This document shows positions 12,930 to 44,695 of a stretch of 48,857 bases of DNA, piece after piece. The notes beneath the pieces were generated by a model that ran no database searches, had not been told where the DNA came from, and saw nothing but the letters and a program-made list of their open reading frames with translations. Origin of the DNA: a bacterium. Its GTDB lineage: Bacteria; Bacillota; Clostridia; Lachnospirales; Lachnospiraceae. A program made the position numbers and the translations under genes. The stretch's first letter is position 1; every line of letters starts with the position of its first letter. The DNA lies in assembly GCA_030535455.1 (NCBI GenBank), contig JAUNJY010000033.1, forward strand, positions 1 to 48,857, given 5' to 3'.

Positions 12930-12962
12930 AGTTTCAGAACAAATTATTAAACAACTAAATAA

Positions 12963-13079
12963 GTTCTTCGGGGTAGGGTGCAAGTCCCAGCCGGCGGTGA
13001 CAGTCCGCGACCCACATAATTTATGTGGCTGATTTGGTGCAATTCCAAAACCGACAGTAAAGTCTGGATGAGAGAAGAT
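12963..13079 (+). ncRNA. FMN riboswitch (RFN element)
   Basis: All hallmark aptamer segments are present in order: TCTTCGGGGTAGGGTG, AGTCCCAGCCGGCGGTGA, the variable helix CCCACATAATTTATGTGG, and GAUUUGGUGCAAUUCC followed by CCGACAGTAAAGTCTGGATG and AGAGAAGA, which closes P1 with TCTTC. It senses flavin mononucleotide. It lies upstream of ribU, and terminator hairpins follow, so transcription attenuation when FMN is plentiful is the expected mode. Confidence 0.98.
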
Positions 13080-13097
13080 GATCTGATTGTTTTTGGA

Positions 13098-19595: not shown

Positions 19596-19779
19596 GTTTC
19601 CTATTCTTGAACAAAGTGTATGTTTCACACACTCTTGCGCTTAAAATCACTGCAAGGAACACACACTTTGCTGCGCCGAACTCGGTCGCGACAGCGATAT
19701 CTTCCTCTCGAGTGAGTGCGCAATCTGCACCCGCTTTTTAGGGTGCTTTCTTCAAGAATAGGAGGCTACTCAAAGAGAA
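19596..19779. repeat. Modular intergenic repeat, tandem unit 1 (184 bp)
   Basis: First of two nearly identical 184-bp units. Read on the plus strand it consists of an arm (TCCTATTCTTGAA); module 1, CAAAGTGTATGTT...AACACACACTTTG; the core hairpin at 19673-19721; module 3, hairpin GCACCC/GGGTGC at 19727-19746 followed by TTTC; and module 4, arm TTCAAGAATAGGA around GGCTACTCAAAGAGAAG. The core folds as GCGC / ACTCG / GTCGC-GACA-GCGAT / CGAGT / GCGC. The open frames across it are not credible proteins. Confidence 0.85.
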
Positions 19780-19975
19780 GTTTCCTATTCTTGAACAAAG
19801 TGTATGTTCCACACACTCTTGCGCTTAAAATCACTGCAAGGAACACACACTTTGCTGCGCCGAACTCGGTCGCGACAGCGATATCTTCCTCTCGAGTGAG
19901 TGCGCAATCTGCACCCGCTTTTTAGGGTGCTTTCTTCAAGAATAGGAGGCTGCTCGAAGAGAAGTTTCCTATTCT
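19780..19975. repeat. Modular intergenic repeat, tandem unit 2 plus stub of a third
   Basis: Second copy at exactly 184-bp period (19780-19963), core at 19857-19905, then a 12-bp start of a third unit (GTTTCCTATTCT). It abuts the A-run 19976-19982, which is the T-tract of the LTA synthase terminator on the minus strand. It differs from unit 1 at a few positions, for example CTGCTCGAAGAG in place of CTACTCAAAGAG, which improves the inner hairpin. Confidence 0.85.
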
Positions 19976-19980
19976 AAAAA

Positions 19981-20019
19981 AAGCTGTAAATCAACCATCA
20001 AATAGTTGATTTACAGCTT
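19981..20019 (-). terminator. Terminator of the LTA synthase-like gene
   Basis: Perfect 15-bp stem AAGCTGTAAATCAAC / GTTGATTTACAGCTT with a T-tract on the minus strand, just after the stop at 20025. Confidence 0.92.
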
Positions 20020-20024
20020 TTATA

Positions 20025-22424
20025 TTATTGGCTGACTTTTGGACTTGCTGTCGCTGCTGCAGGAGTTGCTGTTATGGCATCCTCTTGTGTCGTTTCTATC
20101 TGCTTTAGCTCATATGCCCATTGTAAGCCTTCATTTTTATCAATAATGGTATTATAGACAAGCTTATTGTAGTCCACTAAATCCGCATTGTTACGAATTT
20201 CATTGGCATCATAATAGTTGCCGCTTGCATCAATATAACCATTTTTATTAATTACCGGATATTTTTTAAATAAATCCATAAGATACTTATTATATGCTGT
20301 CATTGGAAGATTTGCTTCTTGTAAGAAGAGAGAAGATAAATAGTTATTACTAATTAAATTCACGTTTTTAGATTCCATATCCTTATTACTCCAGATAAAG
20401 AATGGAACCACATATCTCTTTTGAAGGTCTTCCACGCTTAAATTATTGATTTCATCGCCTAATAATTCTTCAAAGAAACCTGAATATAAGTTTGGCTGAT
20501 GATCACCATAGAACACAATATACGTTTCTTCATCTACATTAGAGAAGTAGTTAATCAGTGTCTTAAGTGCCTCATCTGTCTGACTGACACAAGATAGATA
20601 CTCTTCTGCATCCGCATACTCTGTATCACCCTCAACCTTAATGTTGTAAGTCATATCTCCAGTGTCATACGCACTATGGTTTTGCATTGTTACATTAAAT
20701 AGATAGAATGGCTTCTCTTGGTCTCTTTCTTCATAAAGGCTGATTACCTTTTGGAAATCCGTCTCATCTGTAATATAGCTTCTTAAATACTCTGGATTTT
20801 CAATTGAGTCCATAGCAAGGTATTCATCAAACCCTAATAATGGGTACACAATTTCCCTGCGGTACGTATTTCTACGGTATGCATGGAAAGAGGTTGCAGA
20901 ATATCCTAAACTCTTTAACGTTCTTGTAAAGGAGTTGGTATCTCCTTGAATATATTGTTGGTAAGGAACTGTTCCTGCTGGAAGGAATGCTGTCGTATTA
21001 CCAGTCTGGAATTCATATTCTGAGTTTGCTGTAGTACCACCAAGAACCGAGCTGTACGTATACCCTTTAATGATATTCTTATCTAAAGAATTCAAGTAAG
21101 GAAGTACCTCTTTGTTTGTGGTATAGTCACCAACTTTTGTAAGGTCTGAAAATGCCTCATCCATGATTACGATGATATTAGGCGTACGAGTCGTATCTGC
21201 CTCATCACTTTCATATCCTTCTAATACTTTATTTGCTGCATCAATGGAATAGCCTTCTGGCTTCTCCACTTGCATTGCAAGCAAGTTTAATGAAAATCCG
21301 TTTAATGCACCAAACGTACGATATGTTCCGATTGGCATCCATAAATCAAGACTTCCATGGTTTATTTTTTCATTTCCGATTACCATTGGGAAGGCTAGCA
21401 CAGCCATTGCCACATAGGAAAGGGTAAATACTTTCTTGTTCTTCTTCTCTGGCTTTTGATCTTTGATACGCAGGATGAATGTAACTGTAAATATGGCAAC
21501 AAAGATACCCTCTGCAATATAATATGGCATTAAATAGCTATAGTTGGCAGATACTTCGCTTGCAGTTCTTATTAAGTAAATATCTGCTGGAAGTACAGGG
21601 GATCCCCTGAATAGTATTAAATACCCATTGATCAAGCCTAATACTACCCACACAGCCAATGTAATTAGTAGTGCCGGCTTCATTTTCTTTGTGATGATAT
21701 AAATAATACCGGAAACCAAGAATACCCAGAGCATATTCATAATCCAGTTCCATGGCTTGATATTAAATACATTTGTTTTTGATAATGTTTCGAGTGTCGC
21801 GAATATTAACCACATTGTGATGAAGTACATAATATATGTGAACTTAACCGGGTGTCTTTCTTTCAATGCTTTTAATGGCTTGATTTTGTCATAATTAAAG
21901 AATTGAAGTACCGTAAATATCCCTACTAGAAGGATAAAGATTGCTCCTGTTACCTTGCCTGGTCTGGAGTCATTTGCTGGGAAAAGATAAATACAGTCAT
22001 GAATAATTACCATTACGGCAGTAATCACAGCCGATCTCTTTTGCAATTTCTGATCTGTAATCATAAAGCCATATCGATACATAAGCGTCATTACATAGAA
22101 TACTGCAACGATGATTAAGTAGATATAGATGCCATGTGCACGATAGCCTGGCAGGTTGCGATAGAAACCATAAATACCGGTTCCTACATAAATACTTTCA
22201 ATCAGGTAGTATCCAAATTTCTTAAGATACTTTGTCCCTATTGTTCTAATCTGTTCTTTTTGCTTGTATAATTTGATTCCCACAAAGACATATACATATG
22301 CTGCTATTATAAATAACAGGCTGTATCTATCATGTGGAAGTATTCTTTTTATATCAATAATCCCTACGACTATTGTTATTAGCAATGCCAATACGGCATC
22401 ATTTAATTTCTTTAGATTTGACAT
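20025..22424 (-). CDS. LTA synthase family protein (sulfatase-fold phosphoglycerol transferase)
   Basis: Membrane enzyme of 799 residues. About ten hydrophobic helices occupy the first 400 residues, more than the five of standard LtaS. An extracellular sulfatase-like domain follows: IIVIMDEAFSDL (metal-binding acid residue), SEYEFQTGNTTAFLPAGTVPYQ (family position of the catalytic Thr), YSATSFHAYRRNTYRR, and FYGDHQPNLYSG near the end (metal-binding Asp/His). The family transfers glycerol phosphate from phosphatidylglycerol to lipoteichoic acid or related polymers. The C-terminus ends in an Ala/Thr/Pro-rich tail. I chose the ATG at 22424 for its AAGGAG site. Modular repeats flank the gene on both sides. 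Confidence 0.9.
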   Translation of the reverse strand: MSNLKKLNDAVLALLITIVVGIIDIKRILPHDRYSLLFIIAAYVYVFVGIKLYKQKEQIRTIGTKYLKKFGYYLIESIYVGTGIYGFYRNLPGYRAHGIYIYLIIVAVFYVMTLMYRYGFMITDQKLQKRSAVITAVMVIIHDCIYLFPANDSRPGKVTGAIFILLVGIFTVLQFFNYDKIKPLKALKERHPVKFTYIMYFITMWLIFATLETLSKTNVFNIKPWNWIMNMLWVFLVSGIIYIITKKMKPALLITLAVWVVLGLINGYLILFRGSPVLPADIYLIRTASEVSANYSYLMPYYIAEGIFVAIFTVTFILRIKDQKPEKKNKKVFTLSYVAMAVLAFPMVIGNEKINHGSLDLWMPIGTYRTFGALNGFSLNLLAMQVEKPEGYSIDAANKVLEGYESDEADTTRTPNIIVIMDEAFSDLTKVGDYTTNKEVLPYLNSLDKNIIKGYTYSSVLGGTTANSEYEFQTGNTTAFLPAGTVPYQQYIQGDTNSFTRTLKSLGYSATSFHAYRRNTYRREIVYPLLGFDEYLAMDSIENPEYLRSYITDETDFQKVISLYEERDQEKPFYLFNVTMQNHSAYDTGDMTYNIKVEGDTEYADAEEYLSCVSQTDEALKTLINYFSNVDEETYIVFYGDHQPNLYSGFFEELLGDEINNLSVEDLQKRYVVPFFIWSNKDMESKNVNLISNNYLSSLFLQEANLPMTAYNKYLMDLFKKYPVINKNGYIDASGNYYDANEIRNNADLVDYNKLVYNTIIDKNEGLQWAYELKQIETTQEDAITATPAAATASPKVSQ

Positions 22425-22692
22425 AATTACTCCTTCTTTATGTACTTCTAAATGAGTTATTCGCACAAGCCCTAATTATAATAGCTTTAATTTCAAATAT
22501 CAACTAAATCCAACAATCCCCAGTATGTTTTTACATTTTTTTATATTTTTTTCATTCTTATTTAATCTTATATACAATTTTTTCCTATTGCCTTATTTTA
22601 TCAGTCTGTATCGTTATAATCAATAACTTTTTCTGCCTTAAAAATGACCTGTTTTCTTATGATTTTCGTACCTTTTATTGACTATTTTTCTC

Positions 22693-22880
22693 AGAACAAA
22701 GTGTGTGTTCCACACACTCTCATGCTTAAAATCACTGCAAAGAACACACACTTTGCCCGCGCCGAACTCGGTCGCGGAAGCGACATCTTCCTTTCGAGTG
22801 AGTGCGCAATCTGGCTTTCTGTTTTTCGAAAGCCTTTTTTATACATAGGGGGCTTCTTGAAGAGAAGTTTCCTATGTATA
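22693..22880. repeat. Modular intergenic repeat, single diverged copy
   Basis: Module 1 is CAAAGTGTGTGTT...AACACACACTTTG. The core at 22759-22807 has ACTCG/CGAGT and GTCGC-GGAA-GCGAC. Module 3 is a different hairpin, GGCTTTC (22813-22819) / GAAAGCC (22828-22834) followed by TTTTTT. Module 4 has arms TATACATAGG (22840-22849) / CCTATGTATA (22871-22880) around GGCTTCTTGAAGAGAAG. Arms and module 3 differ from the 19.6-kb copies but keep pairing. It ends exactly at the T-tract of the next terminator on the minus strand. Confidence 0.85.
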
Positions 22881-22886
22881 AAAAAA

Positions 22887-22948
22887 GACTCTATATCAAT
22901 GTGGGAATCGGTGCATGGCACTTCAATTCCAACACTTGACATAGAGCC
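22887..22948 (-). terminator. Terminator of the methyltransferase gene
   Basis: Long imperfect stem: on the minus strand GGCTCTATGTCAAGTG pairs with CACATTGATATAGAGTC, followed by TTTTTT. It is 20 bp after the stop at 22969. Confidence 0.85.
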
Positions 22949-22968
22949 TTAAAACGGTATATCCGCTT

Positions 22969-24444
22969 TTATTTAATTACAAAGACATAAGTGCCTTCGC
23001 GTTTAGAGATTAAAAATTCCTCTACTACTTTAAATCCATATCTTGGTGCAAAACGTTTTACCAAGTCTTTGTCATGGCTGTAAAGGATAATTGTTGCATC
23101 TTCCTTTAAGTGCTCTGGAGCTTTCTTAAAGAAGTTAAGGTAAACCTCCTCAATCTCCTCCTGTGTCTTTCTTCCGATTGCAAATGGCATATTTGTGATG
23201 ATTTCATCAAATAAATACTCATGCTTGAAATCAAAGAAATCACGGTTAATATAATGGATGATCTGACGAGCTGCTTCTGTATTAATTCTTGCCTTTTCGA
23301 TGGCATCTCCATAAACATCAATGCCGTACGTAGTATTTGCTTTCACTGCCTTATGGCGTTCGATTAACATGGTACCTACACCACAGAATGGATCAAGGAC
23401 TTGTGCATCTTCCTTCATATAAGGCTTTGCAAGTTCCACCGTAAGCGCGGCATTGGTTGGGCGGATGCTTGTTGCAAGTACTTCCTTACGGTAGTTGAAA
23501 CGTTTGTCCTCAATTGTATAAAGCTTTACAAGGGTGTTAAACGTTCCTTCTTTATTTTCAATCAAACGAAGTTCCACTTCATAATTACTTGTTGTATTTA
23601 CAAGTTTACGATTGCTTAATCGTTCAATGGCACCGCTTAATTTTTTCGTAAAGGCACTCTTTTTGGATAGTTCCCATTTTGTCTTTAACTCAATTCTAAA
23701 GTAGAATGGTACCTTTCCTTTGTGTCTTGCTGTTAAGAAGTCTAAAAGCTCGCTGTTTACAATCTGGCTTGCACACTCTTCAATATCATTTGGCAGAACC
23801 TTCATGCCTTCTACTACAAATAATAAGTCATCAAAGGTACGAACTTCTAATACTTCTTCTAAATCCTCAGTCTTTGCCATAACACCTGCGTTAAATGCTT
23901 TTGTCTTTGCATTGATCAGCTGTTTTTCAGTTGCTTCGATCTGATCTCTGTTTGTAAGCAATACAAGAGTAGATGGTTCATGAAATCCGATAAACTTATG
24001 ATGTCTGATGCCTTCCATTGCTACCACCAGGTCGCTTAATGCACGCATCTCTTCTGTGATATGTTTCTTATTTTCCTCTGTCAAGGTAACTTTTGAAAGC
24101 TCTTCTAAACGCTCTTTAAATTCCTCTACATAATCACGGTAATCAAACTCTTTAATTGCAGTAAGGTAAGAACTCTTTACAAATAGTTTGTCTTCACGGT
24201 TGTAAGCCTCCACAAGTGGAGCAAGATCAGTCTTTACTGCCAAATCTCCCATTAAAAGTGCCGCATTTTTACGTACTTTGGCATCTTCATGGAATAAGAA
24301 TTGTTGAAATACCTGTTCCTGATCTCCAATGTTGTAAAGGAGGGCATGTTTTGCCCCTGGTTCCTTTAGCTCTTTTCTTAACTTACTTAAGTTTTGACGT
24401 ACGTCATTTTGTTTTATTATCTCTTCGAACGTATCACGAATCAT
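22969..24444 (-). CDS. RNA N2-guanine methyltransferase-like protein (RlmL/Trm14 type) with N-terminal HEAT-like repeats
   Basis: Protein of 491 residues. Residues 1-150 are helical pairs resembling HEAT repeats (FLFHEDAKVRKNAALLMGDLAV). Residues 150-300 form a THUMP-like mixed region. The C-terminal part is a Rossmann methyltransferase of the UPF0020 family: RPTNAALTVELAK, DPFCGVGTMLIERHKA (SAM loop, near residue 357), YGIDVYGDAIEKARIN, and the catalytic-type TNMPFAIGRKT near residue 425, where other members have NPPY. It probably methylates a guanine in rRNA or tRNA; the target is unknown. It lies 34 bp downstream of the helicase-nuclease gene on the same strand, so they may be cotranscribed. 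Confidence 0.82.
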   Translation of the reverse strand: MIRDTFEEIIKQNDVRQNLSKLRKELKEPGAKHALLYNIGDQEQVFQQFLFHEDAKVRKNAALLMGDLAVKTDLAPLVEAYNREDKLFVKSSYLTAIKEFDYRDYVEEFKERLEELSKVTLTEENKKHITEEMRALSDLVVAMEGIRHHKFIGFHEPSTLVLLTNRDQIEATEKQLINAKTKAFNAGVMAKTEDLEEVLEVRTFDDLLFVVEGMKVLPNDIEECASQIVNSELLDFLTARHKGKVPFYFRIELKTKWELSKKSAFTKKLSGAIERLSNRKLVNTTSNYEVELRLIENKEGTFNTLVKLYTIEDKRFNYRKEVLATSIRPTNAALTVELAKPYMKEDAQVLDPFCGVGTMLIERHKAVKANTTYGIDVYGDAIEKARINTEAARQIIHYINRDFFDFKHEYLFDEIITNMPFAIGRKTQEEIEEVYLNFFKKAPEHLKEDATIILYSHDKDLVKRFAPRYGFKVVEEFLISKREGTYVFVIK

Positions 24445-24478
24445 ATTTTCTCCTATTACTCTTTCATTATTAAGTTAC

Positions 24479-27400
24479 TTAAACTTCAACATACTCTGCA
24501 ATGGCATGTTCTACTGCTTCTAGCAACTTCTGTCCTTCTACAAATGGGTTCTTGATCCAGTCTGTTGACCAGATTCTATATATATTCCAACCGATATCCT
24601 TTAACACGGTCTGGCGGAGACGTTCTCTTTCACGTACTGTCCTTGCTGCATAATACGTCTCTCCATCACACTCGATACCAAGCACATAGTGTCCTGGTTT
24701 TTGTGGATGCATGACTGCAAGGTCAATTCGGTAGCCTGACTTGCCGACTTTACGTTCCACCGTGTAATTATGGCTTACCAGGTATTCATAAATGGAATCT
24801 TCAAATGGGGCAAGCTGCATGCTGTCTTCCCCTTTTACCTGTTCGCTTCCGCTCATGGCATAGACCATGTAATCATGAAGCATCTTTACGCCTTCTCCTG
24901 TAATAGTCTCTAAGTTCATGTCTTGTGGCAAGATGGAGCCTACTAATTTTACATTGTATTTTGCCCTTGTAATGGCAACATTTAAACGGCGGTATCCGTC
25001 TTTTTTACTAAGCGGTCCAAAGTTCATGTTAAATGTTCCATTTGCATCCTTGCCATAGGCGATACTGAAGATAATGGTATCTCTTTCATCCCCTTGGACA
25101 TTTTCTAAGTTCTTTACAAAGAAAGGCTCTTGTTTATTTTCATCAAAGAATTCTTCGTATTCATTGGTCTCTAAACGTATCTCACTAAGTGCATGTTCGA
25201 TTTCCTGCTTCTGTGCATCACTGAATGTGATAACTCCAAGAGATCGTTCTTTATGCTCTTTTGCCTGTTCTAATACCAGTTCAACGACTCTTCGTGCTTC
25301 AATCGGATTGTTTTTCTTTCCGCCTCGATCATAAACACCATCTTCTACATAATAATATTCTACCCCACTATTCGGTTTATTTACCACGGTCGATGGGAAA
25401 GTTATTAAATTATGATTGTAAATGGCATCATTAGAAAATGCAATCAGGCTTTCATAACGGCTTCGGTAATGCCAGCGAAGGGTACGTTCCGGTAAGACTA
25501 ACTGTGCTTCCTCTAAGATGGAATCGCACATTGGGCGAACTTCTCCTGTCACTGCATCATTTGCAGTCCCTTCTTTGCTTGTGACAAAGAAGCTTGTTGG
25601 TGGAAGCTGCTTAATATCACCGGCAATGATTACTTGGGATCCACGTAAGATTGCACCAATGGCATCTTCCGGACGAACCTGACTTGCTTCGTCAAAGATA
25701 ACAAGGTCAAACTTATATTTATCTTGTGCCAAGAATAAGCTTACAGTAAGCGGTGACATCATAAAGCAAGGCTTTAACGATAACAATAAGTTTGGAATGG
25801 TTGCAAACAGCTTACGAAGCGGCATGCGATGTTTCTTGCCTAACTCACGCTTTAAGATACCGATTTCGTCATTTGCACCAAAGCTTGTATCCACATCCGG
25901 AATATTTTGAAGCAGACGTTCTCTTACTCGAAGTTTTGCAATTTCAAGCTGTTTTACGTCTAGCTTGTCAAATTCATTTCTGGTCTCTTCTAACATGTCT
26001 CCCTGGAAGTTGGCTACTGTCTCAAAGCGTGGTACCATCTGGTCAAGCCATAACTGGTAGAAACGTTTTAAGAAGGAATCCGTAATGATTGTAGGATTCA
26101 TGCTTAATTCCTCTACTTCATTTACAAACTCGCCAAGTCCTTGTCTCTTCAGCATTTCTTTTGCTTTCAGATAGTTGCACCATTGTTCCAAATAAGAATC
26201 GTTATCCTGCATCTTTTCTAACTGCATGACGATGGATGAAAGCTTCTTGTCTGCAAGAGGTGCATTGAATAAAGAATCAAACCATTCAAACAGGCCTTCC
26301 ATATCATTTACAAGATAGCTTAGATAGTCGTTTGTCTCTTTTAACGTCTCGGCATATGCCTCATCCATACAGATGCGCATAAATGCTTCGCTCACTTTAT
26401 ATTCTTCACCCATGTTCTTACAATCTCTGATCCAGACAAGACCTTTGATAATATGATTCCAGTTTGTCTTAAGACCATCATATTTTTGCTTGAACAGACG
26501 TTTTAAGTTTGCTTGCTGCTCCCCTAATTCTTCTATAATCGTGTTGTAACGCTTTAATTTCTTAAGTACCTGAAGTCCATCATTGTATGGCATGCTAGAG
26601 TGTTCAGGAATTGAGAGAATTCCAAAAATCTGACTGATAATTGTAAGCTTTTCTATCAGACTTATTACATTGTCATAAATTTCTTTTACACTTGTTTCAC
26701 CAATGGCATCCCCATATCGGAAAATATTATTTAATTTTTCTACATGGTCCATGGTAATTACATGGGAAAGGGTTACTCTTGCTTCCTTTAGCTCATCGCT
26801 TGCTACTTCGCCACTGATTAATAAGTCTTTTACCGTTTGAGGTACCGTCTCTTCACCATAGAAATCAAGAATTCTTCTAAAGTCATTTAAATGTCTTTGT
26901 ACTCGGTTATAGTCCGTCTTTCCATCGTTGTAGTACACTCCTAGGAAACGTTTTAACCAATCTTTTCTCTCTTCTGCAAAGATTACATTTTCTTGGTATG
27001 CCAATACTTTGCGGATGATTGCAACCATGTCTTCCTCTTCTAGACGGCTTGTCTGATCTAAATATAAGGAACGCATAAGTTCCATATCTCTACGATAATC
27101 TTTCTTTAGGATACGTGTCACGCCGATATATTCACATTCAAAACGATATAACATTTCTTCTGCATCAATGTCTAAGATGCCTGGTGCAAACTCATTTAAT
27201 AAGTCTGCTTCCATCTGCCCGAGTGCTTCTAATGTATCCTGCACTTCTAACATCTTATTATAGTTTGATTTCCATTTTACTGTATCAAACCACTGAATTG
27301 TTGGTTGTGGATTTAAGCTTAACAATTCTAATAATGTAAGCTGGTCACGATATCCATATAAGGTATTGGCAAGCTTTGTATCTAATACACTGCTTACCTT

Positions 27401-29269
27401 CTTTTCTGCCTCAATGGCTTCTTCTAATAGTTTCTTTTCCTGTAATAGTACTTTGAGCAGGTTATCCATGCTTGCAATTACATCATTATTGGATTTAAAG
27501 TTCACTCCGTTTAATAATGCCTTTGCCTGTTCCATGGTTTCTGTAAGCAACGTAACCCCTTCACCGGCATCTACCTGTTCATAGTCAACCTCAAACATCT
27601 TATCTAATGTCTTCTTAATAGAATTAAACTCTTCCTGCTTCAATTCTTCGCGTTTTGCTAACTGAAGGGCTTCTTCGATATTTGGAATGGTAAGCAATTC
27701 ACTTTCAGACTTTGGTGCTTTTCTGGAAATCTTAAGGATTTCAAGTAACTGGTATGCACCACGTAATGTAGGAGTTGTATTTATCTTATATTCTTCCATG
27801 ATTGCAGCCATCGTATCGTGTAACACGGAAATCTTTTCGCATAACGTAGCTGCTTTTTTCTCAATTTCCTTCTTTCGATCATAACCGCTGTCGTCAATTA
27901 CGCTTCCGTACCATGGATGTTCCTGTAATGGCAGGTCAAATTTTTCTAATACCTTTTCATATTCCGAAACAAGATAAATTAACTGATGAAGCTTTTCATC
28001 GGTAATCTCTTCTACCTTGTCTAAGCGGAATTCCATATTAGGACGAAGGTAAAGCTTTGCTAAATGCCCATTCACCTCATAAATGGACTGGTGTAACGGT
28101 TCACATACTGTATGAAGGTCGATTGCATACTGGTTTAACTGCTTTCTTTCTTCCTTAAGAAGGTCAAGCTGATACATGGTATCTTTGTATGTCTTCTCTT
28201 TTTCCATATGAAGTGTCTCATTTAACTCATCTAGCACTTCTTTCTTGTCCGCTTTATGAGAATGTAATGGCAGACAGAATTCATCCAGGCCTGCGTCGCT
28301 TAGTCGTTTGTATACTACTTCAAGCGCAGCCATTTTCTCGGATACAAATAACACTTTCTTATCTCTTGCAAGTGCTTCTGTAATAATGTTGGTGATTGTC
28401 TGGCTCTTTCCTGTTCCTGGTGGTCCTTGCAATACAAAACTAATTCCCTTATTAGAGTATAGTATTGCGTCCTGCTGTGAAGCATCTGCATCTAAAATCT
28501 GAAATGTATCGGCAGGTTTGCTTAATGCATCATGATTGTAATCAATAAGTGCCTTATCTAATACAGGAAGTGCATCATGATCCCCCGCAAATGCTCGTAG
28601 CACTGGATGGTTCATAATCTCTTCTTTATGTGTGTCGATGTCTTCATACAGCTTCATCTTTGCGTAAGTAAATAAACTTAGAGAAGTTTCCTGATCTACC
28701 GTCCATCCGTACTCTTCTACGCTTCTTGAAACTTCAGCAAAATATTCTCTTATATTGGTCTGCTGATGATACTCTGGCAACACGATGCCAAAGTCTTTAT
28801 TTAATTTATAACATAATGTTGGGTTTAGAATGCAGTCTTCTGTATGGTAAGAAAGCTCATACGGACTATTTAACTCGTCTTGCTTTACTAATACTGGAAC
28901 CAGCACAAGTGGCGCACGGCTAAAGTCACTATCTCCTTCTTCCTTCCAATTTAAGAAGCCAAATGCTAAAAACAAGGTATGAAGTCCTTGTTCTTCCCCA
29001 ATCATTTTTGCTTTCTCTTTCAGTAATTTTAAAATGTGTCGCTCTTCATTTTCTGTACGATTCGATTGTATCGTACCATTCCCCGATTCACGCGAAAACA
29101 CAAATGTCTTATTCTGTTCCACTAAATAATCATATATATAATCCAGATCAGGTGAAACAATACGAAGACTTCCACGTTTTGTATCACGGTAATGAAGTAA
29201 ACGGTTTTGCTTCCCCAAATCTAATAAATGTTTCTTCCACTGCTCAATTAATGTAGTAACGTCAGTCAT
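24479..29269 (-). CDS. DUF4011 / superfamily 1 helicase / Vsr-like nuclease, putative antiphage protein
   Basis: Very large protein of 1596 residues. The N-terminus (LIEQWKKHLLDLGKQNRLLH) is DUF4011. Walker A is LQGPPGTGKSQT near residue 285. A long, mostly helical insertion follows; Walker B FDEASQVRPED comes only near 1193, then motif III AGDIKQLPPTSFF, motif V ENVQGDERDTIIFS and motif VI NVAITRAKYN. The C-terminus is a Vsr/DUF559-like endonuclease domain (YRIDLAVMHP, GIECDGETYYAARTVRER near 1535). This single-gene layout matches, as I recall it, the reported DUF4011-helicase-Vsr antiphage system (Hhe). There are no other defence genes nearby; GGAGG precedes the start. Confidence 0.85.
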   Translation of the reverse strand: MTDVTTLIEQWKKHLLDLGKQNRLLHYRDTKRGSLRIVSPDLDYIYDYLVEQNKTFVFSRESGNGTIQSNRTENEERHILKLLKEKAKMIGEEQGLHTLFLAFGFLNWKEEGDSDFSRAPLVLVPVLVKQDELNSPYELSYHTEDCILNPTLCYKLNKDFGIVLPEYHQQTNIREYFAEVSRSVEEYGWTVDQETSLSLFTYAKMKLYEDIDTHKEEIMNHPVLRAFAGDHDALPVLDKALIDYNHDALSKPADTFQILDADASQQDAILYSNKGISFVLQGPPGTGKSQTITNIITEALARDKKVLFVSEKMAALEVVYKRLSDAGLDEFCLPLHSHKADKKEVLDELNETLHMEKEKTYKDTMYQLDLLKEERKQLNQYAIDLHTVCEPLHQSIYEVNGHLAKLYLRPNMEFRLDKVEEITDEKLHQLIYLVSEYEKVLEKFDLPLQEHPWYGSVIDDSGYDRKKEIEKKAATLCEKISVLHDTMAAIMEEYKINTTPTLRGAYQLLEILKISRKAPKSESELLTIPNIEEALQLAKREELKQEEFNSIKKTLDKMFEVDYEQVDAGEGVTLLTETMEQAKALLNGVNFKSNNDVIASMDNLLKVLLQEKKLLEEAIEAEKKVSSVLDTKLANTLYGYRDQLTLLELLSLNPQPTIQWFDTVKWKSNYNKMLEVQDTLEALGQMEADLLNEFAPGILDIDAEEMLYRFECEYIGVTRILKKDYRRDMELMRSLYLDQTSRLEEEDMVAIIRKVLAYQENVIFAEERKDWLKRFLGVYYNDGKTDYNRVQRHLNDFRRILDFYGEETVPQTVKDLLISGEVASDELKEARVTLSHVITMDHVEKLNNIFRYGDAIGETSVKEIYDNVISLIEKLTIISQIFGILSIPEHSSMPYNDGLQVLKKLKRYNTIIEELGEQQANLKRLFKQKYDGLKTNWNHIIKGLVWIRDCKNMGEEYKVSEAFMRICMDEAYAETLKETNDYLSYLVNDMEGLFEWFDSLFNAPLADKKLSSIVMQLEKMQDNDSYLEQWCNYLKAKEMLKRQGLGEFVNEVEELSMNPTIITDSFLKRFYQLWLDQMVPRFETVANFQGDMLEETRNEFDKLDVKQLEIAKLRVRERLLQNIPDVDTSFGANDEIGILKRELGKKHRMPLRKLFATIPNLLLSLKPCFMMSPLTVSLFLAQDKYKFDLVIFDEASQVRPEDAIGAILRGSQVIIAGDIKQLPPTSFFVTSKEGTANDAVTGEVRPMCDSILEEAQLVLPERTLRWHYRSRYESLIAFSNDAIYNHNLITFPSTVVNKPNSGVEYYYVEDGVYDRGGKKNNPIEARRVVELVLEQAKEHKERSLGVITFSDAQKQEIEHALSEIRLETNEYEEFFDENKQEPFFVKNLENVQGDERDTIIFSIAYGKDANGTFNMNFGPLSKKDGYRRLNVAITRAKYNVKLVGSILPQDMNLETITGEGVKMLHDYMVYAMSGSEQVKGEDSMQLAPFEDSIYEYLVSHNYTVERKVGKSGYRIDLAVMHPQKPGHYVLGIECDGETYYAARTVRERERLRQTVLKDIGWNIYRIWSTDWIKNPFVEGQKLLEAVEHAIAEYVEV

Positions 29270-29383
29270 GATTGTCCTCCATGTCCATCATTTGCTGTCT
29301 TATTTTTTTATTTCTCCCCTTAGGTATTCAGTTCTTAATTATATAGAAAAATTGCCTAAAATGCAAAACAAAAAGAAGGTTGG

Positions 29384-29412
29384 TTGTTCTTTTTTACGGT
29401 TATTGCTATAAT
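29384..29412 (+). promoter_or_regulatory. Promoter of the second AI-2E family gene
   Basis: TTGTTC (29384-29389), 17-bp spacer, TATAAT (29407-29412), about 47 bp before the start codon. The -35 is weak. Confidence 0.5.
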
Positions 29413-29458
29413 ATGAAGTATAATTTTTATTTTCTTCCAATATATGTAAAGGAATTAG

Positions 29459-30661
29459 ATGCCTATGAATTTAAATAAATCAACAATGAAGCAGATTATG
29501 GTCTTGATTACATTTACGGTGCTCCTTTATATCGGAGTGCAGAAGATCACCTCGGTCTATGGCATGATCCGATATATAGCCTCTTTGTTTATGCCATTTA
29601 TTATCGGTGGATGTTTTGCCTTTGTAATCAACATTCCAATGAGCTTTATTGAGAACAATCTGCTGCCCAAAGTGAAGAGCAGGACGTTTCAGCAGTTCCA
29701 TCGTGCAGTAAGTCTGACGCTCTCTCTTTTGTTTGTATTGAGCATCATCCTTACACTCAGCCTTTTGATTATCCCTGAGTTTATCGATAAGGTAGGAATG
29801 CTAATCAATAACTTTAGCTTTTATATCGAGACGATTGGTTCAAGAATCAATGAATATTCCAGCAAAAATGCACAGGTTCATGAATGGCTCCAGGAACTTA
29901 ATCTGAACTGGTCCACAATTGGTACCAATGCAACGAGATACATTAAGGATTTTGTGGATACCTTATTCTCTTCCACGTTTAATATCGTCTCTACCATCAT
30001 CAATGGTTTGATGAACTTAATGATCAGCATTATGTTTGCGCTGTATCTCCTTAGTCGAAAAGAGGATATTATCAGTGATGGAAAGCAGGTATTATACGGA
30101 TATGTACCTCTTTCAATTGCAACGAAGATCCATCGTTTCTTGGTGATCTGTAATCAGACGTTCCATAACTTCATTACTGGCCAGTGCCTTGAAGCGATTA
30201 TCCAGTTTACGTTATTCTTTATTCTATTAACGTTTTTAAACTATCCTTATGCATTGCTGATCAGTTTATTTATCAGCTTTATGTCGTTAATTCCGATCCT
30301 TGGATCGTACATTTCCAGTTACACTTCTGCCTTTTTGATCCTTATGATCAATCCATGGAAAGCAGTGTTCTTTTTACTGTTATTTATGATAGTGCAACAA
30401 CTGGACTCTAGCTTTATCTATCCGAAAGTAGTTGGCAGCTCAGTAGGGCTTCCCCCTATGTGGGTCATCATGGCCGTTACCATTGGCGGACGATTACTAG
30501 GAATTATCGGTATGATTACCTTTATTCCACTGGCTTCCATCCTATATCATTACGTAGGCGAGGGTGCTAGAAAACGTTTAGAGAAGAAGCAGCTAAACAT
30601 AGAAGAAATTGAAATTAAAGATCCATTCAACATAAAGTCCAAACGTAAGCTGACTAAATAA
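29459..30661 (+). CDS. AI-2E family transporter (PerM/UPF0118), second copy
   Basis: Membrane protein of 400 residues. It has the same family features as the 3421 gene: two N-terminal helix pairs with FVINIPMSFIENNLLP, a soluble segment near residues 115-165, and a C-terminal helix bundle with SLIPILGSYISSY and QQLDSSFIYPKVVGSSVGLPPMW. The last 25 residues are Lys-rich and cytoplasmic. The substrate is unknown. AAAGGA lies 5 nt before the first ATG; a second ATG two codons on is possible. It diverges from the helicase-nuclease gene and converges on the Na/Pi symporter. Confidence 0.9.
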   Translation: MPMNLNKSTMKQIMVLITFTVLLYIGVQKITSVYGMIRYIASLFMPFIIGGCFAFVINIPMSFIENNLLPKVKSRTFQQFHRAVSLTLSLLFVLSIILTLSLLIIPEFIDKVGMLINNFSFYIETIGSRINEYSSKNAQVHEWLQELNLNWSTIGTNATRYIKDFVDTLFSSTFNIVSTIINGLMNLMISIMFALYLLSRKEDIISDGKQVLYGYVPLSIATKIHRFLVICNQTFHNFITGQCLEAIIQFTLFFILLTFLNYPYALLISLFISFMSLIPILGSYISSYTSAFLILMINPWKAVFFLLLFMIVQQLDSSFIYPKVVGSSVGLPPMWVIMAVTIGGRLLGIIGMITFIPLASILYHYVGEGARKRLEKKQLNIEEIEIKDPFNIKSKRKLTK

Positions 30662-30665
30662 AAGG

Positions 30666-30700
30666 GAGCGCTTCTAACAATGCTATTGTTAGAAGCGCTC
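30666..30700. terminator. Bidirectional terminator between the AI-2E and Na/Pi genes
   Basis: Perfect 16-bp stem GAGCGCTTCTAACAAT / ATTGTTAGAAGCGCTC with a GCT loop, between converging genes. Confidence 0.92.
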
Positions 30701-30707
30701 TTACCTT

Positions 30708-32363
30708 TTACTCTTCTTTAAGGTAACCGGCGATATTATGGGCATGATCTGCTATTCTTTCAAGGTTAGAAATAAAGTCCATATAGACAACTCCATTTTC
30801 AGCCGTACACAGACTCTTTGACAAACGATTAATATGCTCGTCACGAAGCAGTCTCTGCATTTCATCCACTTTATTCTCATAATCATTTACGGTCTCTGCC
30901 AATGCCACATTTTCGGTCATACGGCACTCTAATGCAGTCTCCACTGCCTTTATTACATAACTGCAGATTTCTTCTAAGCCTGCAGTTGCAGCCTTACTAA
31001 AGGTAAGCTGATCTCTGATCTTATCTTCTGCAAGTTCAACCAGATTTTCTGAATGATCTCCCATTCGTTCAATATCATTTACAGAATATAATAAATTCTT
31101 AATCTTTCCATGCTGTCTCTCATTAAGATTTAGATTATCGACCCAGACTAAGTACTCTGTCAGTACTTTCTCCAGCTCGTTGATTTCCTTCTCCCGTTCA
31201 AAGACAGACTTAATCATTTCCTTATCGTTATTCATAAATGCATAAATTGCATGTTTTGCATTATCCAATGTCACATTACCCATTTCTACTACTTCTTTAA
31301 CTCCAGCTTCTATAGCAAAGTTTGGCGTATCATAAAGACGATGCTCTAAGCGGCCCTTCATCTGGGTTACCACATCCACTGGCTTTTCTTCCTCTTTGTC
31401 ATCTTTAATAATGATCTGAGAAAGTTTTACAAGGACTTTCGCAAATGGGAATAAGATTAACGTATTAGCCACATTGAATACTGTGTGGAAGATGGAAATT
31501 TCCACAGTATTTATGGTTGCATTGGCCCAAGGCCGGTTAAATGAAAATAGGACAAACATAATGATGCCAAAAATGACTGCTCCTGCCACATTAAATAACA
31601 AATGAATTACTGCAGCACGTTTTGCATTCTTTTGTGCTCCTGCACAGCTAATTAATGCAGTTACACATGTTCCAATATTCTGTCCCAAGGTAATAAAAAT
31701 AGCAGAATACCAGTTTACAATGCCGTTAATGGCCAATGTCTGCAAAATACTTACGGATGCAGATGAACTTTGTATGATTGCAGTTACTACAGCACCTACC
31801 AAGATTGCCAAGATTGGATTTTTACCAAGCACGGTAAACGCTTTTACAAATAATTCAGAGTCTCGATATGGTTTGATTGCACTACTCATAAAGCTTAATC
31901 CGATAAATAGCACACCAAATCCAACTAAGATATTTCCTACATCTCGTTTTCCTTCTTTATGGCTAAACATTAATAAAAATGAGCCAATACCAACAATCAA
32001 TGGTGCAAAGAATTCCGGCTTAAAGATCGAGCCCCATTGATTCATGGAAACAATCCATGCGGTAATGGTTGTACCTATGTTTGCACCCATAATGACACCA
32101 ACTGCTTGTACAAGAGAAAGCATTCCTGCATTAACAAATCCAACGACCATAACGGTTGTGGCAGAACTGCTCTGAATTAATGCTGTAATCAGTGCACCTA
32201 CCAGCACTCCCATAAATCGATTATTCGTTAAAAAACCCATAAGCTTCTTGGTCTTGCTTCCCGTTGATTTTTGCAAGCCATCTGCCATTGAATTCATACC
32301 ATATAAAAATAGTCCTAGACCACCGATAAACTCAAACAGATTACCAATACCCTCTATCGACAT
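30708..32363 (-). CDS. Na/Pi cotransporter family protein with C-terminal PhoU-like domain
   Basis: Sodium-phosphate symporter of 551 residues. Two inverted repeats of the NptA/PNaS type are visible, each with a QSSSA motif: ALIQSSSATTVMVVGFVNAG near residue 64 and AIIQSSSASVSILQTLA near 197. The C-terminal 200 residues are a helical PhoU-like domain (ERMGDHSENLVELAEDKI and LERIADHAHNIAGYL repeats), which typically ties transport to phosphate status. AGGAGG lies 6 nt before the ATG. It takes up inorganic phosphate with Na+, or exports it in some bacteria. It has no operon partner. Confidence 0.94.
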   Translation of the reverse strand: MSIEGIGNLFEFIGGLGLFLYGMNSMADGLQKSTGSKTKKLMGFLTNNRFMGVLVGALITALIQSSSATTVMVVGFVNAGMLSLVQAVGVIMGANIGTTITAWIVSMNQWGSIFKPEFFAPLIVGIGSFLLMFSHKEGKRDVGNILVGFGVLFIGLSFMSSAIKPYRDSELFVKAFTVLGKNPILAILVGAVVTAIIQSSSASVSILQTLAINGIVNWYSAIFITLGQNIGTCVTALISCAGAQKNAKRAAVIHLLFNVAGAVIFGIIMFVLFSFNRPWANATINTVEISIFHTVFNVANTLILFPFAKVLVKLSQIIIKDDKEEEKPVDVVTQMKGRLEHRLYDTPNFAIEAGVKEVVEMGNVTLDNAKHAIYAFMNNDKEMIKSVFEREKEINELEKVLTEYLVWVDNLNLNERQHGKIKNLLYSVNDIERMGDHSENLVELAEDKIRDQLTFSKAATAGLEEICSYVIKAVETALECRMTENVALAETVNDYENKVDEMQRLLRDEHINRLSKSLCTAENGVVYMDFISNLERIADHAHNIAGYLKEE

Positions 32364-32430
32364 AATTTACCTCCTAACTCCATACTAAGAATAATATGGA
32401 TGATTTGGAGTTGTTTTATTCTCACCCAAC

Positions 32431-32819
32431 ACCTTTCACATAGAGATTTGCTTGCAAATCTCTTCCGCGCCGAACCCCGTCGCGCTAGCGACATCTTCCT
32501 TTTGGGGTGAGTGTGCATCCTCAGCGGAGCGTATATTATTTTTGTAACAGCTTGTCCCGTAAGCCATTACACCTTTCACATAGAGATTTGCTTGCAAATC
32601 TCTCCGCGCCGAACCCCGTCGCGCTAGCGACCTCTTCCTTTTGGGGTGAGTGCGCATCCTCAGCGGAGCGTATATTATTTTTGTAACAGCTTGTCCCGTA
32701 AGCCATTACACCTTTCACATAGAGATTTGCTTGCAAATCTCTCCGCGCCGAACCCCGTCGCGCTAGCGACCTCTTCCTTTTGGGGTGAGTGCGCATCCTC
32801 AGCGGAGCGTTCTTTTTTT
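32431..32819. repeat. Modular intergenic repeat, three tandem units (about 140 bp)
   Basis: Units start at 32431, 32571 and 32710 (periods 140 and 139). Each has module 1 as a new hairpin AGAGATTTG / CAAATCTCT, then the core (32467-32516, 32606-32655, 32745-32794) with ACCCC/GGGGT where the other loci have ACTCG/CGAGT, and inner hairpin GTCGC-GCTA-GCGAC. Units 1 and 2 are followed by a spacer that can fold as GTAA-GCTT/AAGC-TTAC; unit 3 ends in a T8-ATGC/GCAT-A8 hairpin (32812-32841). Unit 1 differs from units 2 and 3 by a 1-bp insertion and a few substitutions. Confidence 0.88.
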
Positions 32820-32841
32820 TTATGCTTTCGCATAAAAAAAA

Positions 32842-32864
32842 GAGCCTACGTCTTCTGCTGGCTC
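32842..32864. terminator. Terminator flanking the triple repeat
   Basis: GAGCC (32842-32846) / GGCTC (32860-32864) with an A8 run on the left and a T-run on the right, so it can act on both strands. On the minus strand it would end transcripts coming from the HD gene, although it lies 370 bp downstream. Confidence 0.7.
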
Positions 32865-38292: not shown

Positions 38293-38647
38293 TCAGAACA
38301 AAGTGTGTGTTGCTGCTTGGAGCAGCCCTCGTTTTGGCAGGTATACTATCTCTGTATGCGAATATCCACGATTCTTGTCGTTTCACAGGCATATCCATGA
38401 TTTTCTTTTCATATATACCCGAACATCCTATTTTTTCTTTATTTCAAGTCGTACTTTGGGACTCTCACTAAATATTTCTCTCCCCTATGCCCAATCGTTC
38501 ACAATTTGCCCCTTACCGTTTTGGTCAGCGCCAAACCAGGTAGCGCAGCGGCATACTATTTTCGAGTGAGTGTGTATCTTTCATCCGCTGTTCAGACTGC
38601 TTTTTAATGAATAGGATGCTGTTCAAAGAGAAATTAGTCTATAACTC
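38293..38647. repeat. Modular intergenic repeat, degenerate expanded copy
   Basis: Begins CAGAACAAAGTGTGTGTT like the 22.7-kb copy, then diverges through a GCTGCT-TGG-AGCAGC hairpin (from about 38311) and about 190 bp of unrelated sequence. The core remains at 38528-38575 with TAGCGCAGCG and TTTTCGAGTGAGTG, but its ACTCG partner has become ACCAG, so the basal stem is broken. Module 4 persists as AATAGGATGCTGTTCAAAGAG. It ends at the T-tract of the Crp-family gene terminator on the minus strand. Confidence 0.65.
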
Positions 38648-44633: not shown

Positions 44634-44695
44634 AACAAAGTGTGCTTTGTTCAAGAATAGGATGCTTCTCGAAGAGAAGTTTCCTCGTATGCAAC
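44634..44695. repeat. Modular intergenic repeat, minimal remnant
   Basis: A short version in which the core is gone: AACAAAG-TGTG-CTTTGTT joins the two ends of module 1, followed by TTCAAGAATAGGA and the best-kept module 4 hairpin CTTCTC-GAA-GAGAAG, then TTTCCT. The outer arms no longer pair (TTCAAGAAT against CGTATGCAA). It abuts the T-tract of the oxidoreductase gene terminator. Confidence 0.75.

Follow-up and report, generated by a model that had tools for sequence, protein, structure and literature searches.

A short folded core recurs along a stretch of 48,857 nucleotides from the genome of a Lachnospiraceae bacterium (GenBank assembly GCA_030535455.1, contig JAUNJY010000033.1, positions 1 to 48,857; hereafter the window), and on balance we favor reading it as part of a small mobile element that is non-autonomous and occurs in one bacterial family. 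The element would insert at the T-tracts of intrinsic transcription terminators, probably by way of single-stranded DNA at the replication fork, a mechanism that we infer. The core is the middle of a unit of about 130–190 nucleotides (nt) that consists of a 5′ hairpin (hp1), the core, a tail and an outer palindrome (hp4). A first-pass annotation of the window had described the core; it overlooked the mobile unit around the core and the ties of that unit to terminators and to the direction of replication. The element is a widespread unannotated feature that places hairpins beside many genes, and a short, gene-free element that uses terminators, keeps one orientation along the replichore in some genomes and carries a covarying fold would make it possible to study, in a simple and testable setting, how single-stranded targets at forks are found by folded nucleic acids. 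Below, the genome of the window is called the own genome or G000, and other genomes are labeled G001, G003, G005, G006, G130, G249 and so on.

The folded core and its distribution

All six cores reported by the first-pass annotation were found, on the forward strand. Copies 1 and 2 (19673–19721 and 19857–19905) stand in tandem with a unit of 184 nt, copy 3 lies at 22759–22807, and copies 4, 5 and 6 (32467–32516, 32606–32655 and 32745–32794) form a second tandem with a unit of 139 nt; because of these tandem units, the six sites are not independent. A seventh, decayed core at 38528–38579, also on the forward strand, is a covariance-model match (E 6.3e-4). Each core contains three stems, P1 (GCGC/GYGC), P2 and P3 (GTCGC/GCGAY), together with an unpaired CGA/GAGT internal loop and an unpaired C/T-rich strand, and the pairing across the six cores reads as had been described. 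P2 is ACTCG/CGAGT at 19.6, 19.8 and 22.7 kb and ACCCC/GGGGT in the three 32-kb copies, differing on both sides at the third pair (T-A to C-G) and at the fifth pair (G-C to C-G); the paired changes claimed for two positions of P2 are therefore real compensatory changes. P3 keeps its 5-bp stem as its loop varies (GACA, GGAA, GCTA), again in agreement with the earlier description. The strand between P3 and P2, which had been given as 10 nt, has that length in the first three copies and is 11 nt long in the 32-kb copies. When three single cores were folded by energy alone, two took the consensus structure (z −2.1 and −3.3) and the copy at 22759 had a minimum-energy fold that departs from it (z −2.5); the whole 184-nt unit folds with a z-score of −6.0.

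A pattern search of the own genome with up to 3 mismatches found 124 places, compared with 0 for the reversed pattern used as a control. A covariance model built from 24 own-genome cores (there are 25 distinct ones, of which one truncated core was omitted) found 126 copies in the same genome at E values up to 0.001. The own genome is a draft, 93.6% complete with 7.7% contamination, so absolute copy counts carry some doubt. Building such a model and searching relatives with it had been proposed at the outset, and the search returned copies in many genomes of the family: 13 of 60 relatives match (14 of 61 with the own genome), all positives fall within the same family, and the model has no match in the 24 genomes that represent other families of the same order. 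A broader sample of the family contained 299 genomes from 298 genera; at least 64 of the genomes and 63 of the genera are positive with the own genome counted, a lower bound because up to 19 candidates per genome were scored. Copy number within the family ranges from none to more than 100, and the exact pattern also occurs in the metagenome-assembled genomes Eubacterium sp. S35_Bin1 and bacterium S3R_St_47.

Covariation was measured first within the own genome, where 111 matches (101 distinct) were scored at 14 core pairs against a null of 500 shuffles. Of the cells, 95.3% pair; changes on both sides occur in 10 of the 14 pairs (shuffle mean 6.6, a level reached by 1 of 500), and double-change cells number 117 against a shuffle mean of 35 (0 of 500), with 2 to 23 in slid controls. 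A multi-genus set retained 153 of 160 distinct cores, 7 having failed the anchor, from up to 39 genomes, with about 100 of the cores coming from the own genome; the model-fitted alignment of this set was too gappy for pair counts, and the cores were re-anchored by script. P2 is Watson-Crick in 678 of 765 cells (exchanging arms among the sequences gives 441 on average and 481 at most), and one P2 position shows all four Watson-Crick pairs (CG 53, GC 44, TA 27, AT 11). The swapped-arm count located P3 by pairing, with zero A-C there by construction. A fixed register was used in a tree-aware test, run with an R-scape-like script of our own that redistributes substitutions over columns along a FastTree tree in 100 simulations.

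Among the 903 column pairs of the tree-aware test, P2 pairs rank 1, 2, 3 and 5, with E values of 0.00 for the third pair, 0.01 for the fourth, 0.64 for the first and 4.6 for the fifth. The best P3 pair ranks sixth (E 5.4), and P1 gave no covariation signal over the 153 cores. The same two P2 pairs were significant in an initial run with 96 equal-length cores. The covariation that the first-pass annotation had expected is thus borne out by two P2 pairs and not by individual pairs of P1 or P3; of the two P2 pairs it had singled out, the third is significant and the fifth is not significant by itself. A visible change in P3 separates GTCGC/GCGAC from ATCAC/GTGAT in G003. Judged from these alignments, P2 is firmly supported, P3 is supported by visible changes and not by the tree test alone, and P1 is supported by nothing beyond its conservation. 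Departures from pairing in the core comprise 80 G-T and 36 A-C, and 29 of the 80 come from one column pair, making this a weak test of strand. The motif of the outer palindrome fits 28 of 86 arrays, and among these 258 of 308 stem cells of hp4 are Watson-Crick, compared with 193.9 after shuffling (standard deviation 7.3, largest of 1000 = 218).

The covariance model, the genome searches and the tree-aware null together support the initial view that a folded RNA or single-stranded DNA is under selection, and not a protein or duplex-DNA site. None of the 4 open frames over the window copies has a Pfam match, consistent with the repeat not being a protein gene. That it belongs to no described family also held: Rfam 15 gave no match above the gathering threshold, permissive E-values returning sub-threshold matches only, and the open-access literature yielded no paper describing the repeat by title, abstract or short sequence.

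Across genera the parts follow the order A-rich leader, hp1, core, tail, T-run, hp4 and A-run, and truncated and rearranged copies occur. Two types of tail occur, a terminator-like hairpin (GGCTTTC/GAAAGCC, GCACCC/GGGTGC or CGCCC/GGGCG) and a short CGGAGCG-type strand. At three loci (L043, L053 and L054, in G018 and G022), the core takes what looks like a variant form in which P2 is longer.

Terminators, replication direction and movement

Terminators are harmless landing places, and group IIC introns, whose intron-binding site 1 (IBS1) falls in the terminator T-tract, are known users. The 3′ end of the unit usually adjoins the T-tract of a gene's intrinsic terminator, and the unit is antisense to that terminator. 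Terminators were called with a script of our own, and random control windows were drawn from another genome (the G003 sample). Eighty own-genome arrays with enough clean flank were used, 6 of 86 being dropped, and in 63 of the 80 an antisense intrinsic terminator lies within 230 nt after the core end, with the T-tract 73–79 nt from the core in 41 of those 63. The control windows gave 52 per 1000 on the co-directional strand and 25 per 1000 on the other strand. Among the copies examined, an antisense terminator follows the core at 20 of 23 in G003, 17 of 23 in G006 and 5 of 7 in G005; a slightly narrower search span gave 59 of 80 in G000 and 12 of 20 in G001, and, across 27 other genomes, 22 of 39 loci. 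Such a terminator is present at two of the window's three array sites, 19.9 and 32.8 kb. At the first, a terminator-like hairpin with a T-tract on the reverse strand (19982–20018) lies directly 3′ of a sulfatase-family gene (20025–22466, reverse strand) and marks the element junction; at the second, a terminator-like hairpin GAGCC/GGCTC with a T-tract (32842–32864, reverse strand) is kept in G001.

The orientation of the element was followed most fully in G003, a complete congener in one contig of 4,521,945 bases. Its 47 cores, at about 42 separate loci, lie on the plus strand from 1.16 to 3.40 Mb and on the minus strand from 3.66 Mb to the contig end and onward to 1.11 Mb. The position of dnaA (3,496,685), the two intervals in which GC skew and gene direction switch (3.33–3.54 Mb and 1.04–1.25 Mb, from 20 sampled stretches), and the strands of the cores together place 47 of 47 cores head-on to replication. 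Local GC skew is negative in the element direction at 84 of 86 own-genome arrays, and by the same test at 6 of 7 loci in G005 and at 13 of 13 other loci (3 of them in G001). The polarity is strong in the genus of the window and is not universal. Open reading frames of at least 100 amino acids in the G003 sample number 281 co-directional and 50 head-on, and intergenic terminator-like sites in 400 kb of G003 number 84 co-directional and 57 head-on, so that terminator choice alone would not yield 47 of 47. The chance of no reversal over 42 loci is about 1e-3 by gene direction and about 4e-10 by terminator direction, and because many terminators work both ways, the true chance lies between these values. 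Two own-genome arrays (L159 and L197) have a local GC skew opposite to the rest; L159 is without an outer palindrome and terminator, and an apparent gene start follows it.

Identical cores stand in unrelated flanks in G003, G006, G249 and G130, which shows that the element has moved. The leader is TGAAAAAG in five of six G249 copies and TAAAAAAG in the sixth, and AGAACAAAG in 4 of 4 G130 copies, and the sequence preceding it varies in both genomes. On the 3′ side of identical copies, identity stops at the last bases of hp4, and the A-run beyond varies by site. A-runs thus occur at both unit ends; because the leader is common to copies and the 3′ A-run depends on the site, the 5′ run looks element-owned (in G249 and G130; it is ambiguous in G003) and the 3′ run looks target-owned. 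No clear target-site duplication was seen at the unit junctions of identical copies, and no terminal inverted repeats were seen by eye at their unit ends.

Comparison with G001, which is 86–89% identical to the own genome in aligned blocks of the window's region, bears on turnover. Both flanks match an own-genome array at 2 of the 30 G001 loci examined (of 68 copies), a comparison that used 86 own arrays and may underestimate sharing. At the 32-kb site, where the own genome has an outer palindrome on the forward strand (32814–32841; T-run, ATGC..GCAT, A-run), G001 keeps the terminator and has a different T/A palindrome and no core. At the 19.6- and 22.7-kb sites, G001 contains remnants of a tail and a palindrome of another type. 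The own-genome copy L028 is absent from G001, and the difference of about 360 bp includes DNA outside the unit.

Mechanism, mover and competing explanations

We propose that the element would insert at a terminator hairpin and T-tract while these lie exposed, as single-stranded DNA, in the template of the lagging strand. Where genes are co-directional, that template is the strand bearing the hairpin and T-tract, which fits the requirement of insertion at the fork; read from orientation alone, insertion into this template would fit G003 and G000 and fits G006 weakly. The run just inside hp4 is complementary to the target T-tract, and this T/A run could pair with the T-tract and set the cut, acting as a guide. 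The folded core and hairpins may be recognized by an enzyme, HUH-like or another that reads hairpins. On the other strand, hp1 and its A-run can resemble a terminator, and a resident copy may thereby become the next target, which would produce head-to-tail arrays.

Several observations weigh against this proposal. First, no mover was found: G003, with 47 copies, has 0 Y1 transposase matches from 8 candidates, and the own genome, with 126 copies in a draft that is 93.6% complete, has no match to the reverse transcriptase family RVT_1. Second, the finder called no terminator at 17 of 80 own-genome arrays, including the 22.7-kb copy, and open frames of 100 codons or more enclose 8 of the 80 arrays and 5 of 23 G006 copies. 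Third, hp1 was called as an antisense terminator in 9 of 80 cases in G000, 11 of 23 in G003, 15 of 23 in G006, 1 of 20 in G001, 3 of 7 in G005 and 12 of 39 at other loci, and these counts make self-targeting partial at best. Fourth, gene direction accounts for much of the polarity, and the polarity is weak in G006, a genome of another genus (16 of 23 by skew), where contigs hold both directions. Fifth, strand stability is split, the core favoring the plus strand (102 of 108) and hp1 the minus strand (67 of 86); the tail is more stable as the plus strand in 62 of 85. Finally, because of the G001 remnants, the kept palindrome and the L028 difference, the comparisons gave no site that is cleanly empty and whose ancestral state is known.

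Two enzyme types were considered as the mover. An HUH Y1 transposase was rejected because Y1 counts over 61 genomes, own included, do not track copy number (3 matches in the own genome, one fragment in G001, 1 in G006 and none in G003), and the ends near five Y1 genes are unlike the unit, by eye. A reverse transcriptase was rejected because the own genome is without an RVT_1 match (G001 has 1 weak match, G003 has 3 and G006 has 1). Neither type occurs in all high-copy genomes. An IS200-like Y1 transposase element was observed in G006 directly after a long hairpin and A-run (L098, contig 13). An IS91-like reading of a GAAC start was set aside because copies in G003 and G249 begin without GAAC (the Y2 family lay outside the search). 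De novo creation of the palindrome at insertion, raised by site-specific hp4 beside identical cores in G006, seems less likely, since young G003 and G249 copies largely share hp4. A phage or plasmid origin was rejected because a 222-base unit had no match in either collection at E 1e-5; three viral-contig pattern matches are without the unit's hairpins, by eye.

RNA-mediated retroposition, in which an RNA would be copied at terminator T-tracts by a reverse transcriptase acting in trans (group IIC-like or target-primed), seems to us possible and on the present evidence unlikely. Excerpts of one source describe the target of group IIC introns as a hairpin of the kind found in terminators, together with a short, T-rich IBS1 (PMC3898094), a use of terminators like the one this route would make, and the better folding of the core as plus-strand RNA (102 of 108) and the start of several own-genome copies inside hp1, noted by eye, also count in its favor. 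Against this, a genome with 126 copies has no RVT_1 match, Rfam scans show no group II intron family, the 3′ A-run varies by site and would thus belong to the target and not to an RNA tail, and 3′ losses also occur, so that 5′ truncation is not distinctive.

Rather improbable, in our judgment, is a kept host cis element or small RNA, namely a terminator-linked insulator against antisense (head-on) transcription that spread by duplication and gene conversion. Where the strand of flanking genes is known, the own-genome element is indeed mostly antisense to them (69 of 73 genes on the downstream side, 62 of 71 on the upstream side), its tail supplies a sense terminator in 27 of 80 cases in G000 and 7 of 23 in G003, and the fold is conserved across many genera. 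However, a sense terminator after the core is rare elsewhere (0 of 23 in G006, 2 of 20 in G001, 0 of 7 in G005 and 1 of 39 at other loci), and the range of copy number together with the 2 of 30 shared G001 loci fits turnover better than a fixed role. An artefact of DNA-level palindrome repair, in which template switching keeps inverted repeats perfect and yields covariation without selection on the fold, is very improbable, because, although departures from pairing in hp4 are equal (8 G-T and 8 A-C of 308 cells) as expected without an RNA strand preference, the strongest covariation falls in P2, which is interrupted by P3 and the 10-nt unpaired strand, and such repair would not conserve the unpaired CGA, GAGT and C/T-rich strand that are largely kept across genera. 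Selection is the likeliest route to the good pairing and not the sole one; DNA-level palindrome repair could also yield the equal departures of hp4.

Relation to known elements and remaining features

The unit behaves as a terminator-targeting mobile element and lacks features that define group II introns, REP elements and miniature inverted-repeat transposable elements (MITEs). It resembles group IIC introns in lying 3′ of the T-tract of intrinsic terminators (63 of 80 arrays), with the better-folding strand of its core antisense to the terminator. Unlike those introns, it has no Rfam group II match (domain V and other parts), is far shorter and shows no constant intron start, and the own genome has no reverse transcriptase match. 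MITEs are likewise small, non-coding, dispersed and probably moved in trans; the element differs from them in that neither terminal inverted repeats nor a clear target-site duplication was seen.

According to excerpts of one account, IS200/IS605-type HUH enzymes insert in the lagging-strand template, with a guide beside a hairpin that sets the cut (PMC6006769). As far as those excerpts describe them, IS200/IS605 and REP/RAYT systems share with the unit subterminal hairpins, no terminal inverted repeats and a replication-linked orientation, and possibly a short internal guide that pairs with the target (PMC6006769). The unit differs from them in its occurrence in G003 (47 copies) without a Y1 match, in ends unlike the IS200-like ends that were compared with it, in its larger multi-hairpin form and in its interrupted covarying core; by the definition of REP elements given in the same excerpts (PMC6006769), it differs further in that no GTAG/GTGG was seen by eye at the hairpin foot of units. 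Nearest in style, when compared by description only, are the BOX, RUP and SPRITE repeats of pneumococcus, which are small folded interspersed repeats of a different architecture. The consulted portions of one source describe SPRITE as terminator-like and enriched where transcription is undisturbed, and BOX and RUP as having paired terminal inverted repeats, with insertion sequences as proposed movers; the term "lagging" is absent from that source (PMC3049150).

The element is best described as a small dispersed non-autonomous element with a real chance of being its own class. A fuller version of this idea, which we offer tentatively and consider somewhat doubtful, is a minimal folded RNA or single-stranded DNA that would read terminators through pairing of an internal A/T guide with the T-tract, insert in one fork-relative direction, be able to rebuild its target at the far end and depend for its movement on an enzyme other than a canonical Y1 transposase or a canonical reverse transcriptase.

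The other parts of the units in the window lie, unless stated, on the forward strand. The hp1 of copy 1 (first letters GAACAAAG) spans 19609–19671, that of copy 2 spans 19793–19855 (fold z-score −4.4) and that of copy 3 spans 22694–22756, and a short hp1 (AGAGATTTG/CAAATCTCT) precedes copy 4 at 32442–32463 and recurs at 32582–32603 and 32721–32742. A tail hairpin GCACCC/GGGTGC lies at 19727–19746, with a second copy at 19911–19930, and copy 3 is followed by a tail hairpin GGCTTTC/GAAAGCC and a T-run at 22813–22834, which resembles a sense terminator. The outer palindromes of the first array are at 19751–19795 in unit 1 and at 19938–19975 in unit 2, where the 3′ end adjoins the antisense terminator. 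The hp4 of copy 3 (L015) is at 22840–22880, and the terminator finder called none beyond it. A remnant of an outer palindrome lies at about 44645–44680, beside a hairpin with an A-run before it and a T-run after it. At five further loci (L010, L013, L029, L183 and L199), the arms of hp4 are mismatched or chimeric, or partial palindromes lie upstream of hp1, which suggests that copies have recombined or that tandem arrays have been broken.

A second dispersed repeat, about 240 nt long, was found at L306:470-709 (G000 contig 97) and often lies just beyond the same terminators. In G001 it matches more than 30 places, mostly at 82–92% identity, and its 14-mer has one weak two-mismatch match in the window, no more than chance. 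A stretch similar to this second repeat, CAGACTGTAGACAA, occurs after terminators in L005, L011, L156, L182, L183 and L189. Elsewhere in the window, an FMN riboswitch at 12960–13083 on the forward strand scores 108 bits, above the Rfam gathering score.

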